In this document: piece after piece, positions 505-9,036 of the stretch
Position numbering within the stretch: position 1 is the stretch's first letter
Layout: the number at the start of each line of letters is the position of its first letter
NCBI GenBank assembly: GCA_004376575.1
Contig: SOJN01000147.1
Location: 1 to 41,728 of the forward strand
Origin: a candidate division TA06 bacterium
GTDB lineage: Bacteria; Hydrothermota; DG-26; E44-bin18
DNA: 41,728 nt
Direction: 5' to 3'
The notes under the pieces: generated by a model
What the model was told of the DNA's origin: nothing
Databases searched by the model: none
What the model saw: the letters and a program-made list of their open reading frames with translations, nothing else
Position numbers and translations under genes: made by a program

Positions 505-1665
505 CTACCTTATTAGCATCGTCTTCCCCGTAAAGACTCTTCCGTCGGCAACCATCCTGTAGAAGTACACGCCGTTGTTTAAATCTGTCGCGTCCCAGGT
601 TAGAGTGTAAAGGCCGGTTGCCTTTTCTCCATCGACCAGTGTCGTTACCACGCTTCCCGTCACATCGTAGATTCTGAGAGTTACGTGAGTCGCAGCAGGA
701 ATCATGAAGCTTATACTTGTTCTGTCCGAGAACGGGTTGGGATAGCTCTGGAACAGAGCAAGCGCCCTCGCCTCAATCCTTGTGCGTGAAGAAAGCGCGG
801 GGCCATCCATCGTCCCACAGTGGAAAGGTGCACACATCTCGTCGTTGTCAGGGTTCTGATCCGGTGTCCAGATCGTCGTCGCACAGATCTCGTGGTCGCC
901 TTCGGGAAGAGGGATAGGCGAGAATTCTACGGACATTGTTTCCCCTGGCCCAAGAGTGTCCTCGATGGTCTTTGTCTCCTGGTCCCCTGATGTCATTATC
1001 ATGATAAAGACATCGAAGAACGATGCCGGTTCCAGTCCGAAGTTCTTCACATGGACGGTGGGGACGTATGGATTGCATCCAGTCGGACCAGGGGGATCTA
1101 TCATCGTGACACCCAGGTCATGTGGTACAGGCCAACACCAGCGTTTTGCGAGGCACACGGTCTTGGGAGCGAAGCACCTTGTACGACCAGAACTACCTAA
1201 GTCGTGGGTCACCTTACACGTCGTCCACCAAGGAAAGGTGCATTTAGTAGGGTCTTCAGGATAGTAGGTTTTTGCCCTACACTTTGTGTAATTGCTCTCA
1301 TCGAAGCACTTGGTAGGGGCATCTTTGTTGTGGGTGACTTCGCACTTCGTAAACTTACGCTTCTTCGGGCACTTGGTGCCCTTAACGGGGCAGCGCGTAT
1401 CATCCGGAGGACATTTGGTGTTACGTGGTTTCTTTGTTGGCTCTGGCTTCCTTCCCAGGAGAAGGTCTTGAAGGTCTTCGCCATGCTCGTTGCTCTCAGG
1501 CACGTTGCGAACAGTACGCATTTCAGTGAAGGCCTGATTTAGTGTGTTTTGATAGAGCGGACCGTCACTGGAATCATCAGTTCCTTGAGCGGTTCTCATG
1601 GAGAGGAAAGCGACTGCGGCAGCCATAACCACGAGGAGTAGTATTAGCTTACCTGTCCATTTCAT
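505..1665 (-). CDS. Secreted cysteine-rich TKC-repeat protein with C-terminal sorting domain
   Basis: A 386-residue exported protein of unknown function. Residues 1-28 form a signal peptide. Residues about 83-177 hold eleven cysteines (85, 92, 99, 108, 120, 129, 142, 150, 164, 171, 177), most inside a T-[K/R]-C triplet, with short Lys/Thr/Pro-rich spacers. A CARDB-like beta-sandwich follows (about 195-290, VHVKNFGLEPASFFDVFI). The last ~80 residues match the FlgD-like/type A sorting domain: YPNPFSDRTSISF, then TLRIYDVTG, then GVYFYRM. Such domains usually mark surface-bound or secreted proteins. The regular cysteines could bind metal or form a disulfide ladder; that is inference. The start is fixed by AAAGGAGGTGA upstream and by the signal peptide. 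It has a paralogue immediately downstream at the window edge. Confidence 0.85.
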   Translation of the reverse strand: MKWTGKLILLLVVMAAAVAFLSMRTAQGTDDSSDGPLYQNTLNQAFTEMRTVRNVPESNEHGEDLQDLLLGRKPEPTKKPRNTKCPPDDTRCPVKGTKCPKKRKFTKCEVTHNKDAPTKCFDESNYTKCRAKTYYPEDPTKCTFPWWTTCKVTHDLGSSGRTRCFAPKTVCLAKRWCWPVPHDLGVTMIDPPGPTGCNPYVPTVHVKNFGLEPASFFDVFIMIMTSGDQETKTIEDTLGPGETMSVEFSPIPLPEGDHEICATTIWTPDQNPDNDEMCAPFHCGTMDGPALSSRTRIEARALALFQSYPNPFSDRTSISFMIPAATHVTLRIYDVTGSVVTTLVDGEKATGLYTLTWDATDLNNGVYFYRMVADGRVFTGKTMLIR

Positions 1666-2137: not shown

Positions 2138-4594
2138 GTGCGTGTTAACCTATATTGCATTGTCGTGACAGAAAACTCCCTAGCCCACGGCCGCTCATCT
2201 ACCCATCTCTTCCAGAAGGTAGCCCTTCTAATTCTTGCAACCGCATTCCTTTCAGAAATAGCTGGCTTCCTCACGCACCAACTCAATCTGGCACTTGGAG
2301 CAGTACTCCTGCTCTGGCTCGCCATAACCTATTTGCCTTTGCGGAAGGTTGCGCTAAGGAGTCATCGGCTCTGGCTAGGGCTTGCGATTCTCATTTCTGC
2401 ATTCGCTTCCCTCAGGGTCCAGCCGGGCTTAAGGCCACTGCTCGTGTCTCTCTTTCTCCTCGGATTGTATCAGGTCTTGTCAAGCGGAGACGAAACCGCC
2501 CGAGAACTGAAGGGTATGGCAGTCGGTACCTTTTCGTTTGGATTATTTCTCATCTTTGAGAAGCACTCGCCCATTGTCTGGTCTGCCATTCAATCATTCT
2601 CGGTCTGGTTCTCAAGAGTGATTGGAGCAGCAGGAGGCAGGCAGCTCTCAATCTCTGCGAGCTTTACGGGAGTATATATTACTCTTTTGTTCCTTTCGGT
2701 TTCTGTAGCCCTCTTCTTCTCGAGTCGCAGAAAGAAGCCCGTCAGCCTGGTGCTGCTAGTGGTTGCTTTTCTTGTGGCAAATGGTATTGCCATTGCTCTC
2801 GGCCATCCACTCGCTCACGCAATGGCGACCGTCGTTCGCGATAGCGCTGAGGGCGTCAGCGCATACAATAGAATCCTCATGTCGGCTCCGCTTCTTGCCT
2901 TATGCTTAGGTCTCATTCCGCTCTATGTTTTCACAAGGATCATGCATCCGACCATTGAGCCATCCCCTGGAAAAGTAAGGCCTGTCTTCGGAGGGGTGGG
3001 GCTTTCTGCTCTTTTGGTCTCAATCCTCATTCTGGTTCTTGTTGCTCCGGCACGGGATACCGGACAGGCAAGAATAGCCTTCTACAGAGAAGGCTACTTC
3101 AACTGGATGAGGCCCATCCATGGGGAGTATGGCTCGCGCAGTTCGGGGATGTTCGGCAATCTCCCCGTTTTCGCTGAAGCGCTCGGTTTCGAGTCGATTA
3201 CCATAGATTCAATAAATGGTTCAATACTGACTGGTGTCACGGTCCTGTTTATGATCAATATCGACCATGAGCTTCCAGCTCACTCATACGAAGAGATACG
3301 GGAATTCGTGGAGAGAGGCGGATCACTTGTTATGCTCGGTGACCACACTTTCTTCAAGGACGAGAGGAAGAACTGGCTCAATGCTGTTCTGAGGCCGTTT
3401 AAGATAAAGTACAACTTCGATTCAGGAGACTACTTCGTTGGCGGATGGCTCCACTCCTATTCCTATCCGGCCAGTCCTCTCACAGTCGGTATGAGCGATG
3501 AACAGAACGATGTGGGTTCAGTTGTGGGTGCTTCACTCAGGATCTCCTATCCAGCAGTCCCGGTAATCATAGGCAGGTATGGCTTCTCAGACGAAGGAAA
3601 TCCGGATGATGAAGATGGTGGCTACCTTGGAAATCTGGAATACGATCCCGGTGAGAGATTGGGAGACGTTATTCTGGCCGCGGCGCAGAACTACGGGAAA
3701 GGGAAGGTGCTCATCTTCGGTGACACTTCTGGATTCGTTAACCCGCTCATGATCGACACATACCCGTTCGTCAACAGAGTCCTCACATGGCTGGCAAGTG
3801 ATGCGAGAATCCCTGCTCACGGTCCGAGGCTCACTCTATCAATTGTTTTTCTGAGTCTGTTCATTCTCCTGACTTCTGTATCAGGCTTCTCAGCTCTCCG
3901 TTTCCTCCTGATGCCCATCCTCGCGATTGTTCCAATCATCTTAAGCCAGGCTCTATTTGCAGGAAGAGTAGAGACACCTATTAGAGGAGATTTTGCGCTG
4001 GTTGACGATTCCCATTACGGAAGGTACCCGGTGGAGTTCTGGAAGCCGCATGGTCACATGGGCCTCCACCTGAACCTGATGCGCAAGGGTTATCTTTCGT
4101 TCGGTATGCGCGACTTTGATACTCACTTCTTGAATAGCAGTAGACTCCTTGTACTGATAGCTCCGAGCAAGGCTTTTACGAGTGGAGAAATAACCGCACT
4201 GGATGAGTATGTGAGGAACGGCGGCAACCTCCTTATGGCCGTTGGATATGAGGAGAAGGGCGCCTCCACATCTTTGCTCAGGCACTTTGGGTTTGACATA
4301 GAGAATACCCCTCTGGGGAGCTTCTACACAGATGTACCTGGTACCGACTTGTTTGTGTATTTCCGTGAGGCCTGGCCAATCTCATACTCCGGTGAAGATG
4401 TCGAGGTCATAGCCGGTCACGGCGAATACCCAGCCGTTGTCCTGAAGAATCACGGAGAAGGTAGAATTGTGGTCTTCGGAGATTCTGGCTTCTTCTACAA
4501 TATTAACCTGGAAACCGAGGATGAGCCGCTTACTGCGAACATCGAATTCTTGAGTTGGCTTCTGGATCAACTGAATACTCCTGAGGAGAGCTAA
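2138..4594 (+). CDS. Multi-spanning membrane protein with two GATase1/DUF4350-like modules
   Basis: An 818-residue membrane protein, not assigned to a named family with certainty. Residues about 25-305 contain roughly eight hydrophobic segments. A soluble module (about 310-560) follows, with the GATase1-like signature EIREFVERGGSLVMLGDH (386-403) and a second glycine-rich strand KVLIFGDTSG. Two more membrane helices (about 566-607) lead to a second similar module (about 615-815; EYVRNGGNLLMAVGY, then RIVVFGDSGFFY). The order suggests soluble domains displayed beside a membrane core, as in DUF4350-type proteins. Helices near 170-230 resemble an exosortase core but lack its Cys and Arg. The start is uncertain: GTG at 2138 has no strong ribosome site, and a later start cannot be excluded. 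Its stop is 3 bases from a paralogous gene, so the two are surely co-transcribed. Confidence 0.75.
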   Translation: MRVNLYCIVVTENSLAHGRSSTHLFQKVALLILATAFLSEIAGFLTHQLNLALGAVLLLWLAITYLPLRKVALRSHRLWLGLAILISAFASLRVQPGLRPLLVSLFLLGLYQVLSSGDETARELKGMAVGTFSFGLFLIFEKHSPIVWSAIQSFSVWFSRVIGAAGGRQLSISASFTGVYITLLFLSVSVALFFSSRRKKPVSLVLLVVAFLVANGIAIALGHPLAHAMATVVRDSAEGVSAYNRILMSAPLLALCLGLIPLYVFTRIMHPTIEPSPGKVRPVFGGVGLSALLVSILILVLVAPARDTGQARIAFYREGYFNWMRPIHGEYGSRSSGMFGNLPVFAEALGFESITIDSINGSILTGVTVLFMINIDHELPAHSYEEIREFVERGGSLVMLGDHTFFKDERKNWLNAVLRPFKIKYNFDSGDYFVGGWLHSYSYPASPLTVGMSDEQNDVGSVVGASLRISYPAVPVIIGRYGFSDEGNPDDEDGGYLGNLEYDPGERLGDVILAAAQNYGKGKVLIFGDTSGFVNPLMIDTYPFVNRVLTWLASDARIPAHGPRLTLSIVFLSLFILLTSVSGFSALRFLLMPILAIVPIILSQALFAGRVETPIRGDFALVDDSHYGRYPVEFWKPHGHMGLHLNLMRKGYLSFGMRDFDTHFLNSSRLLVLIAPSKAFTSGEITALDEYVRNGGNLLMAVGYEEKGASTSLLRHFGFDIENTPLGSFYTDVPGTDLFVYFREAWPISYSGEDVEVIAGHGEYPAVVLKNHGEGRIVVFGDSGFFYNINLETEDEPLTANIEFLSWLLDQLNTPEES

Positions 4595-4597
4595 GGG

Positions 4598-7132
4598 ATG
4601 TTTCTCATCTGGTTGGCAGTCCTGTTTTCCTCCATCAGTTGGCTGTACGGCCTGAAGATATACACCAGCCCTGTGCCCTGGCTCGGTTGGGTGTTGATAG
4701 GTGTGGCTGCTCTTCTCGCCTGTTTCGGCTTGCGCCCCAGGGAGCATTCGAATCTTGACAAGAAGATTCTGTACCTCATCATCCCGCTTCTTCTCTCCAG
4801 CGCGATTCTCCCTCTTCCGTACAGAATTGGTCCAGGGATGATGGCACTTGCAATCCTGTTGATGCTCTGGCCAAGCTCCAGGCCAATCGGTTCTGGATTT
4901 CTATTTGTTGGGGCCGTTCTGGTCATGCAATCTCTCATACCAGGGATCTACAGCATCATTTCCGCTCGCTCGCCTACGGTAAATGGTATGACCCCATTCA
5001 TCTTCGGACTACTCAGGTTCCTGAGGGTGCCGGTCAGTTACAGCCAGAATACGCTCTTCTTCAGAACGATGAGAGAGCTCTACGAGATTCAGACTACGTG
5101 GGCGGCCATAGGACTCCTGCCGGCCCTTCTCATTGTTGCTGGTGGCGTGGCTGCAATATTCTTCTATTTCGAGAATGTCTGGCGGAAGGTGGTCCACCTG
5201 GTTGTCACCGTGGGAATCTACGTGGTGGTGAGATATGTATTTCTGCTTGTGTTCTTTGTATATGTTATGTACTTCGTTGGATACGATGAGGAGGCGAGCA
5301 AGACTTACATATTCTGGAATCCCGTATCGATAGGGATAAGTTTCTTACCATTCGCCTTCATAATACACAGGTTCTTCCATCCTCGGGAAAAGCCTGTTTC
5401 GGCCGTCATCTTAGAAAATCTGAGTCTCGGACCAAGGCAGAGAGTTGCTGGCGTGCTGTTGTGCACGGGGGCCTTTCTTCTTACAGCCTCCTTCGGGTTC
5501 CACGACCCTGGTACGTTGAAGAAGGGGAGGTTCGTCATCGATGAGAAACACAGCGAGTGGACAGTCACGACGAAGCGCTATGATACAAAATGGTATGGTT
5601 CAGAATCGGGGTACAACTACTACTGCATGGCGGAATACCTGGCGCATCACTATTCACTGAAAAGAAACCTCGAAACGATCACTCCCGAAATGCTGGACAG
5701 TTGCGATGTCCTCATGGTAAAGGTTCCAACCAACTCTTACTCCGAAGAAGAGATAGATGCAATTGTGGATTTCGTGGAAAGAGGAGGGGGTCTCTTCCTG
5801 ATTGGAGACCACACAAATGTGTTTGGCTCCAGTGTATATCTGAATCCGATTGCCAGTCGTTTTGGATTTAAGTTCAGGTATGACTGTCTGTTTGATATTG
5901 AGCGTGTCTTTGAACAGGTTTACACGCGACCGCGCGTACTTCCTCATCCGATAATACAGAGAATGCCGCCATTCTTGTTTGCTGTTTCTTGTTCCATAGA
6001 GCCAAACTCGTTCTTTCCGGGCAGAGTGATTCTAGCAGGAGGACTGAAGAAACTGGACATTGACTACTCGGTTTCAAACTTCTACCCCCAGGTCGTGGAC
6101 CGTTTGGGGATGTGGTTCGGCAACTTCCATCAGGCAATCGCCACGAGATACGGAAGGGGAAGGGTCGTTGGATTCACAGACAGCACTGTCTACAGCAATT
6201 TCTCCGCCTTCTACCCTGGAAAGCCTGAGTTTCTCCTTGGGGCAGCCGACTGGCTCAATCGAGAAAACAGGTTTCCGTGGGTGAACAGGTTGTTGCTTAT
6301 AATATCTCTCTGCTGTTTTCTCCTTTCGGCTTACATCCTCCCGAGGAGAAACGCGAAGAACTTCGGGTTCATCTCTTTTGCGCTCGTTGGCGCCATGTTC
6401 TCAGCCTCACTTGCAATTCTCCTTTTCGGGGCCATAAACAGGTCGACGTACAAACTCCCGACGCCTGTTTCCGAGCTGACCGGGGTCGTATTCGAACAGG
6501 GCCACTGTGATTACGATCTTCCACTTACAGGCTTCACAAGAGAGCCTGGGCAGTCATACGAGATCTTCTTCCAGTGGGTTCTGAGGCTCGGGTATTACCC
6601 GTTTGCAGTGCCCAATATCGAAGAGAGCATAGAGAGGGGAGATTTGGTTGTTCTCATCAACCCGGTTTCCGACTTCACTGCGAGGGAAATAGATGCTCTG
6701 GAGAGATTCGTTTCCCAGGGAGGTCGGCTTCTTGTCGCTGACAGAGTTGAAAACGGCTCGGATGCGTCCAGGAAACTCTTGGAGAGATTTGACATCTTTG
6801 CAGACAAGGGCCTGGTGGCTGATGCTTCGCCTGCGTATGAGCCCTCTTCGCAGATATCATGGGACCTTGGGGATGCTTTTGAGTTGAGAGGCGGCAAGCC
6901 CCTGCTCTTTTCGGAAAGGGCCGTTCCAGTGATGACATTTGCAGACCACGGGGAAGGACTGGTTTTGGCCCTGTCTTTCTCCGATGCTTTCAATGACGCT
7001 GGGATGGGCTTTACCGAAGGTGTCCTTCCCGACCGACGGCTTCTCCACCATTACCATCTTCAATTCGCCATAATCAAGGGGCTCATTGAAGGCAATCCCA
7101 GAGAAGCCCTGATCAATGCAGACAAACTGTGA
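4598..7132 (+). CDS. Multi-spanning membrane protein with two GATase1/DUF4350-like modules (paralogue)
   Basis: An 844-residue paralogue of the preceding protein with the same plan: hydrophobic segments over about 1-300, a soluble module with AIVDFVERGGGLFLIGDH (388-405), a helix pair at about 545-600, then a second module with DALERFVSQGGRLLVAD. The two genes have diverged: overall identity looks low, but the order of helices, the 'R-F-F-H-P' or 'R-I-M-H-P' end of the core and the signatures match. ATG at 4598 has GAGGAGAG just upstream, within the end of the previous gene, which suggests translational coupling. No catalytic Cys-His pair of a true class I amidotransferase is evident in the signatures, so a binding or structural role is more likely than glutaminase activity. 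Substrate and partners unknown. Confidence 0.75.
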   Translation: MFLIWLAVLFSSISWLYGLKIYTSPVPWLGWVLIGVAALLACFGLRPREHSNLDKKILYLIIPLLLSSAILPLPYRIGPGMMALAILLMLWPSSRPIGSGFLFVGAVLVMQSLIPGIYSIISARSPTVNGMTPFIFGLLRFLRVPVSYSQNTLFFRTMRELYEIQTTWAAIGLLPALLIVAGGVAAIFFYFENVWRKVVHLVVTVGIYVVVRYVFLLVFFVYVMYFVGYDEEASKTYIFWNPVSIGISFLPFAFIIHRFFHPREKPVSAVILENLSLGPRQRVAGVLLCTGAFLLTASFGFHDPGTLKKGRFVIDEKHSEWTVTTKRYDTKWYGSESGYNYYCMAEYLAHHYSLKRNLETITPEMLDSCDVLMVKVPTNSYSEEEIDAIVDFVERGGGLFLIGDHTNVFGSSVYLNPIASRFGFKFRYDCLFDIERVFEQVYTRPRVLPHPIIQRMPPFLFAVSCSIEPNSFFPGRVILAGGLKKLDIDYSVSNFYPQVVDRLGMWFGNFHQAIATRYGRGRVVGFTDSTVYSNFSAFYPGKPEFLLGAADWLNRENRFPWVNRLLLIISLCCFLLSAYILPRRNAKNFGFISFALVGAMFSASLAILLFGAINRSTYKLPTPVSELTGVVFEQGHCDYDLPLTGFTREPGQSYEIFFQWVLRLGYYPFAVPNIEESIERGDLVVLINPVSDFTAREIDALERFVSQGGRLLVADRVENGSDASRKLLERFDIFADKGLVADASPAYEPSSQISWDLGDAFELRGGKPLLFSERAVPVMTFADHGEGLVLALSFSDAFNDAGMGFTEGVLPDRRLLHHYHLQFAIIKGLIEGNPREALINADKL

Positions 7133-7274: not shown

Positions 7275-7340
7275 ATGAAGCTGCCAAACAAGTGGACGAA
7301 GCTGCAATTCCCCTGGGTTCCGGCGAGTTTACATGGATAG
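7275..7340 (+). CDS. Possible 21-residue leader peptide
   Basis: A short open frame begins at ATG 7275, directly after the predicted transcript start, and ends with TAG at 7338-7340, four bases before the ATG at 7345 of the S55 peptidase gene. It encodes 21 residues starting MKLPNKWTKLQF and contains two tryptophans and three lysines. The position would allow translational coupling to the ATG at 7345. It has only a weak ribosome site (GCGGAAG), overlaps the upstream candidate start of the next gene, and could be chance. Confidence 0.25.
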   Translation: MKLPNKWTKLQFPWVPASLHG

Positions 7341-9036
7341 GAGAATGAGAAGAAAACCCTTGCTTTTGATGGTTTTCCTGATGCCATTTTTGGCCTCTAC
7401 AGGAGCAGCTCCTGTTGAGTTCATGCCCGTGGACGATTTGAGACCGGGTATGAAAGGCATTGGCAAGACTGTTTTCCACGGGACTGAGGTGAAGGACTTC
7501 GATGTCGAGGTGGTGGGTGTGCTCAAGAACGCGAGGCCAAAGTCTGACCTGATTTTGCTTGAGCTTTCGGGAGGACCACTTGAAGAATCTGGCGTGATTG
7601 CGGGTATGAGTGGAAGCCCTGTCTATGTCGACGGTAAACTGGTGGGTGCAATCGCGTACGCGCTGGGTATCTTTCAGAAAAAGCCCTTGGCTGCAGCCGT
7701 TCCTATAGAGGAGATTCTTTCCTCTAAGGATTTCGGCGCTGTCGGTATGGGACGTCCTCGTTTTGAGTCTTTTGGCGACATCACTCCTATCGCGACTCCC
7801 GTGGTTTTCTCAGGATTTGACCCTCGAGCCACACGCTGGTCCGCCTCTCCTCTTGAGCAATTCGGGCTTATTCCTGTCGCAGGAGGAGGAAAGAGAGGCG
7901 GAGAATCATCTCCTCTGATACCTGGTTCTGTTCTGGCGATAAGACTGCTAGATGGTGACTTCGAGATGAGCGCAATAGGGACCCTGACGCATCTTGAGGG
8001 GAACAAATTCTATGCTTGGGGACACCCGATGTTTCATACAGGGAAAACCGAGCTTCCAGCGACTGGTGGCTACGTGCATACAATTCTCAAGAGCAGCATG
8101 ACTTCATACAAGATAGCGTCTGCCACAGAGGGTTTGGGTGCGGTTCTTGAGGACAGGTTTTCTGGCATCAGTGGGAGCCTTGATGCGAGAGCAAAGGTGC
8201 TCCCTCTAAACATCACGGTCGATTCCGACGAGGGGGTTTCCGACTATAAGATCAACGTGATACTCAATAGGGCGCTGACCCCGTCGTTGTTCGCAATAGC
8301 TGTAATGAACAGTGCGATGGTGAGCGGAAATATTCGGGGAGAGCTCACAATCAACTCTGACATAACGATCAGTCTGGAAGGGCACGACGCTATCCGCTTT
8401 CGAGAGACGTACTCAGACAGTCTGGCGATATTTGGCCTGGCCAGGGATGCCACAGATATTATGGCAGTCCTGATGGGAAATGCTTTTGAAAAAGTCACTT
8501 TCAATAACGTGGACATCAAGCTGGTTCTTACAAATAAATCGAAGAGGGCATACATAGCAGACGCATTTGTCAGCAAGCGCATCGCCGATCCCGGAGATAC
8601 CATTGTCGTCACTATCAGACTGAAACCCCACGCGCAAGAGAAGTATGTAAAGACTGCACATCTGGTGATACCTGAAGATTCGCCTCCAGGGGATGTCACC
8701 ATAATCGTTGCAGATGGGGCCACTGCAGCTGGAGAGGAAACAAGGAGACAGCCTTTCAAAGGAAAACCGCGCAACCTTGATGAGCTTATAGAAAGAATTG
8801 GGTCACAAAGGCCATCGAATTCTATCGTGGTCACCATGTACATACCTGGAAAGATCGTTTCCGTACCTGAGGGCGAGATGCCCTCTCTTCCCCCATCTTT
8901 CCTTAGTGTTATTCAGAAGACTCAATCTAGAGATTTGATGGAGGCCTCTAACATCATTTCCAGTGAGAGGGTAATAGAGACTGAAGATGTTATATCGGGT
9001 AGAAGAGAACTTAAGGTGAGAGTGGAGGAGAAATGA
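7333..9036 (+). CDS. SpoIVB-type S55 family serine peptidase domain protein
   Basis: A 567-residue exported protein with a SpoIVB (MEROPS S55) peptidase domain. After a basic N-terminus and a hydrophobic signal segment (about 8-25), the mature part opens with PVDDLRPGMKGIGKTVFHG and then VEVVGVLKN. The motif that carries the serine nucleophile in this family, GMSGSPVYVDGKLVGAIAYA, is at 91-110. The later conserved block AWGHPMFHTGKTELPATGGY is also present. In Bacillus, SpoIVB cleaves a partner outside the membrane to activate a membrane protease; spore-formation genes are absent here, so the target is unknown. Two starts are possible: ATG 7333, or ATG 7345, which lies after GGATAGGAG and just past a possible leader ORF. 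It overlaps the next gene by 4 bases. Confidence 0.88.
   Translation: MDRRMRRKPLLLMVFLMPFLASTGAAPVEFMPVDDLRPGMKGIGKTVFHGTEVKDFDVEVVGVLKNARPKSDLILLELSGGPLEESGVIAGMSGSPVYVDGKLVGAIAYALGIFQKKPLAAAVPIEEILSSKDFGAVGMGRPRFESFGDITPIATPVVFSGFDPRATRWSASPLEQFGLIPVAGGGKRGGESSPLIPGSVLAIRLLDGDFEMSAIGTLTHLEGNKFYAWGHPMFHTGKTELPATGGYVHTILKSSMTSYKIASATEGLGAVLEDRFSGISGSLDARAKVLPLNITVDSDEGVSDYKINVILNRALTPSLFAIAVMNSAMVSGNIRGELTINSDITISLEGHDAIRFRETYSDSLAIFGLARDATDIMAVLMGNAFEKVTFNNVDIKLVLTNKSKRAYIADAFVSKRIADPGDTIVVTIRLKPHAQEKYVKTAHLVIPEDSPPGDVTIIVADGATAAGEETRRQPFKGKPRNLDELIERIGSQRPSNSIVVTMYIPGKIVSVPEGEMPSLPPSFLSVIQKTQSRDLMEASNIISSERVIETEDVISGRRELKVRVEEK

Follow-up and report, generated by a model that had tools for sequence, protein, structure and literature searches.

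A conserved pair of membrane proteins with exosortase-like cores lacking catalytic residues, encoded beside secreted Cys-repeat proteins

Exosortases are known as enzymes, and rhomboids offer a precedent for an enzyme core that is kept as a binding or docking unit after its active site has been lost. Relatives of the GIFT domain are mostly regarded as binding modules. The 2006 paper on EpsH names three motifs, C-x-G, N-x-x-R and H-x-x-x-G (PMC1569441), and an archaeal DUF4350 family has been predicted to form part of a complex for secretion or membrane remodelling (PMC5898192).

Here we describe two adjacent genes, P1 and P2, from a bacterial DNA stretch of 41,728 nucleotides (the window), whose products appear to join these two themes. 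The pair is kept beside a gene for a secreted Cys-repeat protein in distant bacteria, which points to an undescribed system handling that protein. Titles and abstract openings of open-licence papers on inactive exosortases, proteins with Cys at every fifth position and DUF4350 do not describe such a pair. Loss of the active site throughout a family that keeps the core would mean a second role for the exosortase core, in binding or docking.

505–1665, minus strand: secreted Cys-repeat protein, divergent neighbour of the pair, with 15 Cys and, by eye, nine T-[KRT]-C units, a leader motif and a T9SS type A tail
1531–1563, minus strand: leader GPLYQNTLNQA, residues 35–45 of the Cys-repeat protein; matches the leader motif
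2138–4594, plus strand: P1, 818 aa; membrane core (about residues 1–305), GIFT/DUF4350-like module 1, helix pair, module 2
4598–7132, plus strand: P2, 844 aa; laid out as P1, its core being the clearer exosortase relative

Architecture and distribution of the pair

Both open reading frames (2138–4594 and 4598–7132) and the stretches FTGVY, ANGIAI and YVVVRYVFLL singled out in the initial annotation were confirmed, and the fusion to pairs of GATase1/GIFT-like modules that it proposed is borne out. Each protein begins with a multi-helix region and continues with two soluble modules separated by a helix pair, and DUF4350, ABC_transp_aux and IFT52_GIFT all score above the Pfam cut-off on both (DUF4350, 52.1 and 43.8 against a cut-off of 30.4; GIFT, 35.9 and 43 against 27.2). 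The two proteins are paralogues across their soluble parts (BLASTP 5e-13), and a profile comparison of one core with the other gives P 0.0027. Unlike the DUF4350/GIFT families, including GldG, P1 and P2 carry two modules each on a many-helix core and are paralogues that always occur as a pair. The GldG model itself (TIGR03521, equivalog cut-off 389.85 bits) gives the window proteins only 13.3 and 21.5 bits.

Searches of solved structures returned IFT52/Osm-6-like matches for both proteins (weak for P2) and one further weak match for P1, and a plasmid search with P1 returned one DUF4350 protein and nothing else. Single-sequence AlphaFold2 models, made without an alignment, were poor (pLDDT 52.8 and 54.6). 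The idea that this layout is common to GIFT proteins of the window's phylum was rejected, as no many-helix core occurs among the open reading frames listed, the window's own excepted.

In all 20 compiled pairs, drawn from five phyla, the two genes share a strand, with P1 directly upstream of P2. The two genes overlap by exactly 4 bases in 11 of the 20 and by more in six, where the choice of start may matter; no overlap is present in the window (3 bases between), L150 (0) and L089 (100). Translationally coupled subunits show such a pattern, and the pairing is almost certainly obligate.

Among 147 genomes of the window's phylum, P1 and P2 were found in no genome besides the window's, the second match there (L004) being a secreted, GIFT-only protein. 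A two-row alignment of P1 and P2 matched 13 of 390 genomes. Six of these, the window's own and G197, G280, G282, G303 and G339, have two such open reading frames; the remaining seven matched over short stretches only, in open reading frames of other sizes. Searches by phylum with the P2 alignment matched 1/4 genomes of the phylum of G282, 7/8 of that of G280, 11/132 of that of G303 and 4/5 of that of G197, some matches being fragments at contig ends and two of the 11 looking GIFT-only, in open reading frames near 1380 aa. Several relatives are close (L090/L143, L162/L163, L151–L153), and the counts therefore overstate the number of independent cases. Scans of genome contigs, whether by P1 or by the P1/P2 alignment, gave no result.

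The idea that the pair needs an active exosortase encoded in its own genome was considered and rejected: exosortases over the cut-off occur in 8 of 27 genomes examined (the 27 include some without the pair), and the window's genome has none at E up to 10. Four genomes (G280, G393, G394 and G397) apparently carry two separate P1/P2 pairs each; the second pair has neighbours with Cys at every fifth position at three of the four loci, and in G397 the contig ends.

Exosortase likeness of the membrane cores

2663–2677, plus strand: P1 FTGVY, residues 176–180; aligned by hhalign with exosortase C-S-G-[LI], Cys at position 176 in 0/19
2777–2794, plus strand: P1 ANGIAI, residues 214–219; Asn not conserved (2/19)
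5105–5119, plus strand: P2 A-I-G172-L-L, residues 170–174; at the exosortase C-x-G position, Gly in 20/20, Cys in 0/20
5231–5233, plus strand: P2 Arg212; 18/20, aligned to the exosortase N-x-x-R arginine

The proposal of an exosortase-type core would have failed if judged by HMMER alone. With E allowed up to 10, curated exosortase models (Pfam, NCBIfam; PF09721, TIGR04178) matched neither of the two window proteins, and at the same limit seven P2 members matched no Pfam or NCBIfam exosortase model and seven P1 members no NCBIfam one. Family profiles compared by hhalign did match (best scores 41.5 for P2 and 34.1 for P1). As yardsticks we took 15 exosortases from the genomes examined and from named plasmids, with L165 left out: XrtA-type proteins (L158–L161, of which L159 and L161 were placed by sequence, without a model scan), small proteins near XrtH or XrtF (L162, L163, L164, L169, L170, L013), XrtE (L066–L069) and a fragment (L006).

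With all 15 combined in a mixed profile and columns trimmed, P1 scored 34.1 and P2 32.3. Controls made from 300 block-shuffled versions of each, which preserve composition, reached maxima of 22.0 (P1) and 25.8 (P2), with 0/300 reaching the P1 score, and reversed and unrelated membrane profiles stayed at or below 20.1. The clearest signal came from the P2 profile (20 proteins) against the XrtH-like profile, which scored 41.5 (P 1.8e-5), alignments of the P2 core with XrtH-like exosortases spanning 144–163 columns; none of 200 shuffled controls scored as high (maximum 27.3). Against XrtE the P2 score was 22.5 (0/200 controls as high) and against the XrtA-like profile 16.3 (80/200). P1 reached 20.7 against the XrtH-like profile (2/200) and noise level against XrtA-like or XrtE profiles.

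Comparison with single sequences again favoured P2, which scored 36.4, 33.8, 27.4 and, for a fourth, 19.7 against XrtH-like proteins; the highest-scoring of 26 membrane proteins from E. coli reached 18.1. For P1 the top three single sequences were E. coli proteins, and no exosortase rose above these controls. Lone P1 or P2 sequences against the exosortase profile overlapped broadly with 40 control open reading frames, some of which had been chosen for weak PF09721 matches. A solved-structure search returned nothing for an XrtA-type exosortase query and only apparently unrelated matches for an XrtH-like one, and viral contigs searched with an exosortase fragment gave no result.

Taken as family profiles, the P2 likeness is above chance and the relation strong, and its core is very probably homologous to exosortases. 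The P1 likeness is probably above chance; its relation is moderate and carried in part by paralogy with P2, and homology of its core is somewhat favoured. The initial annotation's exosortase-type core without catalytic residues thus stands clearly for the P2 profile and more weakly for P1, although it had taken P1 as the better match.

Residues were counted in 19 P1 proteins (truncated L150 and L154 left out) and 20 P2 proteins (truncated L149 and L157 left out). Like XrtH-like exosortases (TIGR04177, TIGR04178), the P2 core has the Gly of C-x-G and the Arg of N-x-x-R in register, and a Trp likewise falls in register. Unlike them, it has Cys in none of the 20 proteins and Asn at N-x-x-R in none, and no His is conserved at the aligned catalytic place, where an invariant Trp240 stands beside the lost residue; tandem GIFT modules are fused to it and it matches no exosortase HMM. 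The stretch around Arg212 reads YVVVR212YVFLL, as reported.

In the window's P1 the two stretches are A174-S-F176-T-G178-V-Y180 and A214-N-G-I-A-I219, and His occupies positions 223 and 227. The Cys position of P1 is Ala in 12 of 19 proteins, and Gly178, also in 12 of 19 and usually as Ala-Ser-Gly, is the conserved part of the motif; position 218 is never Arg (0/19). The Asn and His that had been matched to exosortases do not survive comparison: Asn215 occurs in 2/19 and His227 in 1/19, the window protein only, so these two matches are no evidence and were rejected as exosortase relics. Judged by their defining residues, the cores of P1 and P2 are not exosortases, because P2 has lost Cys, Asn and His and P1 does not retain Cys, Arg or His.

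The Cys-repeat neighbour and its leader

A Cys-repeat open reading frame lies within 2 kb of the pair at 14 of 17 loci and in all five phyla. Each of the 17 has 500 bases or more of flank ahead of P1 (which leaves out L092, L148, L150 and L154), and the P2-only ends L145 and L157 are not counted among them. The gene is upstream of P1 in 13 loci and downstream of P2 in L089. It usually adjoins the pair; in L152 one gene lies between, and in L093 and L144 an overlapping open reading frame on the opposite strand, probably spurious, is listed between the two. At L147, L155 and L156 there is no Cys-repeat neighbour, and additional 20 kb stretches, two around L155 and one around L156, hold no Cys-repeat open reading frame. 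In short control loci lacking the pair, 0/241 open reading frames reach 12 Cys per 100 residues.

Cys spacing varies by lineage, being mostly 6 (often with 7), 5, 7–8 or 10, and is irregular in the window protein. The Cys-repeat proteins carry a leader, [SGT]P[LA][FY], a short way past the signal peptide. A longer form of the motif is present in 15 of 23 Cys-rich open reading frames of pair loci versus 0/286 others there, and in 0/166 open reading frames of other loci and 0/166 in E. coli stretches; because this form was fitted to the same Cys-repeat sequences, only its absence elsewhere counts as a test. In L091, just upstream of 3385–3690, an in-frame stop inside the leader, directly after SPLFSA, cuts off the start; the candidate causes are an error in the sequence, an inactivated gene or recoding.

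Like type A cargo of the type IX system (T9SS), the window Cys-repeat protein has a C-terminal Por_Secre_tail (38.6 bits against a cut-off of 23). Unlike such cargo, the Cys repeat and leader also occur in relatives with other tails: the window protein and those of L089 and L094 have type IX tails, proteins in the phylum of G280 carry a TTWG motif at the C terminus, and L151 and L153 have dockerin-like tails, recognized by eye. As tails differ among lineages, it is the leader and repeat, not the tail, that go with the pair.

Cys at every fifth position recalls the RiPP peptide CefA (NF038108), whose spacing recurs in neighbours at L144, L146 and L091 (E 0.08, 0.0047 and 0.0083; 12.9–16.8 of 30 bits). 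Unlike CefA, however, all of these fall below the cut-off, and most Cys-repeat proteins have other spacings and signal peptides.

The functional link between the pair and the Cys-repeat protein is likely. The initial annotation had suggested a non-catalytic receptor for sorted proteins. The receptor part fits this conserved secreted neighbour; the exosortase-sorted part does not, since the neighbouring Cys-repeat proteins, inspected by eye only, differ from exosortase substrates in having no C-terminal transmembrane PEP-CTERM-type sorting tail, and the neighbourhood therefore does not show a receptor for exosortase-sorted proteins.

In one phylum a C-terminal TTW[GS]..K..F-like motif ends Cys-repeat proteins and also one unrelated secreted protein, and looks like an undescribed sorting tail. 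Its carriers are:

L090:15339–16499
L090:3587–4204
L114:22–615
L143:6277–6894
L149:4700–6115

Proposed role, alternatives and other neighbours

5990–5992, plus strand: P2 Cys465, first soluble module; 20/20

Seven residues of the first P2 module, His318, Lys375, His405, His450, Cys465, Asp528 and Asn534, are each present in 20/20 proteins, and Cys465 may serve thiol chemistry; P1 has no invariant Cys. In both cores Lys and Arg are mostly abundant in two loops, one between the motif helices and one leading into the last core helix (for example +8/−0 in L090 P1 and +5/−2 in the window's P2, but weakly, +2/−1, in its P1); by the positive-inside rule, both soluble modules would lie in the periplasm.

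Handling of the Cys-repeat protein before its export, within the periplasm, is the most likely role of the pair. Our best explanation as a whole, to which we assign a probability of roughly 0.4, is that P1 and P2 form a complex with dead exosortase cores that captures or matures this protein. P1 and P2 would together make up an obligate complex of two proteins in the inner membrane, with both cores derived from the exosortase/archaeosortase superfamily, nearest the small XrtH-like kind, and no longer working as exosortases because the nucleophilic Cys and its partner His are lost. The two GATase1/GIFT-like modules of each protein would be displayed in the periplasm, where the complex would capture the secreted Cys-repeat protein by the short leader that remains once the signal peptide is cleaved, and keep or mature its Cys array before the organism's own outer-membrane route, represented in the window by the type IX tail. 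Cys465, with the invariant His, Lys and Asp residues, may perform thiol chemistry on the array. The fullest version, which is distinctly tentative, is a protein-maturation system of a new kind present in five or more bacterial phyla: a heterodimer of two dead exosortases, each with tandem periplasmic modules, would recognise the leader and, through the invariant P2 Cys, chemically process the array or fold it ahead of outer-membrane export. The leader-bearing Cys-repeat proteins provide testable cargo, and the invariant P2 residues define direct mutants.

Alternatively, the pair could assist an envelope transporter or general surface assembly as a GldG/DUF4350-like accessory, with the core serving only as membrane anchor and the Cys-repeat protein as one surface client. 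The Pfam matches on the soluble modules, the weak GldG match and the predicted complex membership of archaeal DUF4350 (PMC5898192) agree with this. However, GldG reaches at most 21.5 of 389.85 bits, the Cys-repeat neighbour recurs in five phyla and no other family recurs across phyla in the clustering of the partly annotated neighbours; this explanation is rather unlikely.

It is less likely still that the complex is an active enzyme whose first P2 module cleaves, cross-links or acylates the Cys-repeat protein while the dead exosortase core docks it. Such chemistry would suit the invariance across five phyla of Cys465, three His residues (318, 405 and 450), Lys375 and Asp528, and a small CcmH-like protein near the pair in one family, itself below the Pfam cut-off; however, the argument is one of conservation, and P1 lacks an invariant Cys. 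Convergence of hydrophobic sequence on an unrelated membrane fold, consistent with the absence of HMMER matches and the failure of P1 in single-template controls, is improbable given that 0/200 composition-preserving block shuffles match the P2 score against XrtH-like proteins and that Gly, Arg and Trp are in register.

BLASTP clustering of the neighbours, part of which are annotated, showed no other family recurring beside the pair across phyla. The gene directly after P2 has no relative beside the pair in other loci by the same clustering.

7333–9036: secreted SpoIVB/S55-like protein, directly after P2
13785–15941: protein with three predicted helices and weak, sub-cut-off matches to VWA, MG2 and DUF7408

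A small CcmH-like protein, a possible thiol-redox partner, is encoded near P2 at five loci of one phylum (L092:6055–6471, L153:12180–12566 and relatives). The L092 protein matches with a Pfam E of 1.5e-4, below the cut-off.
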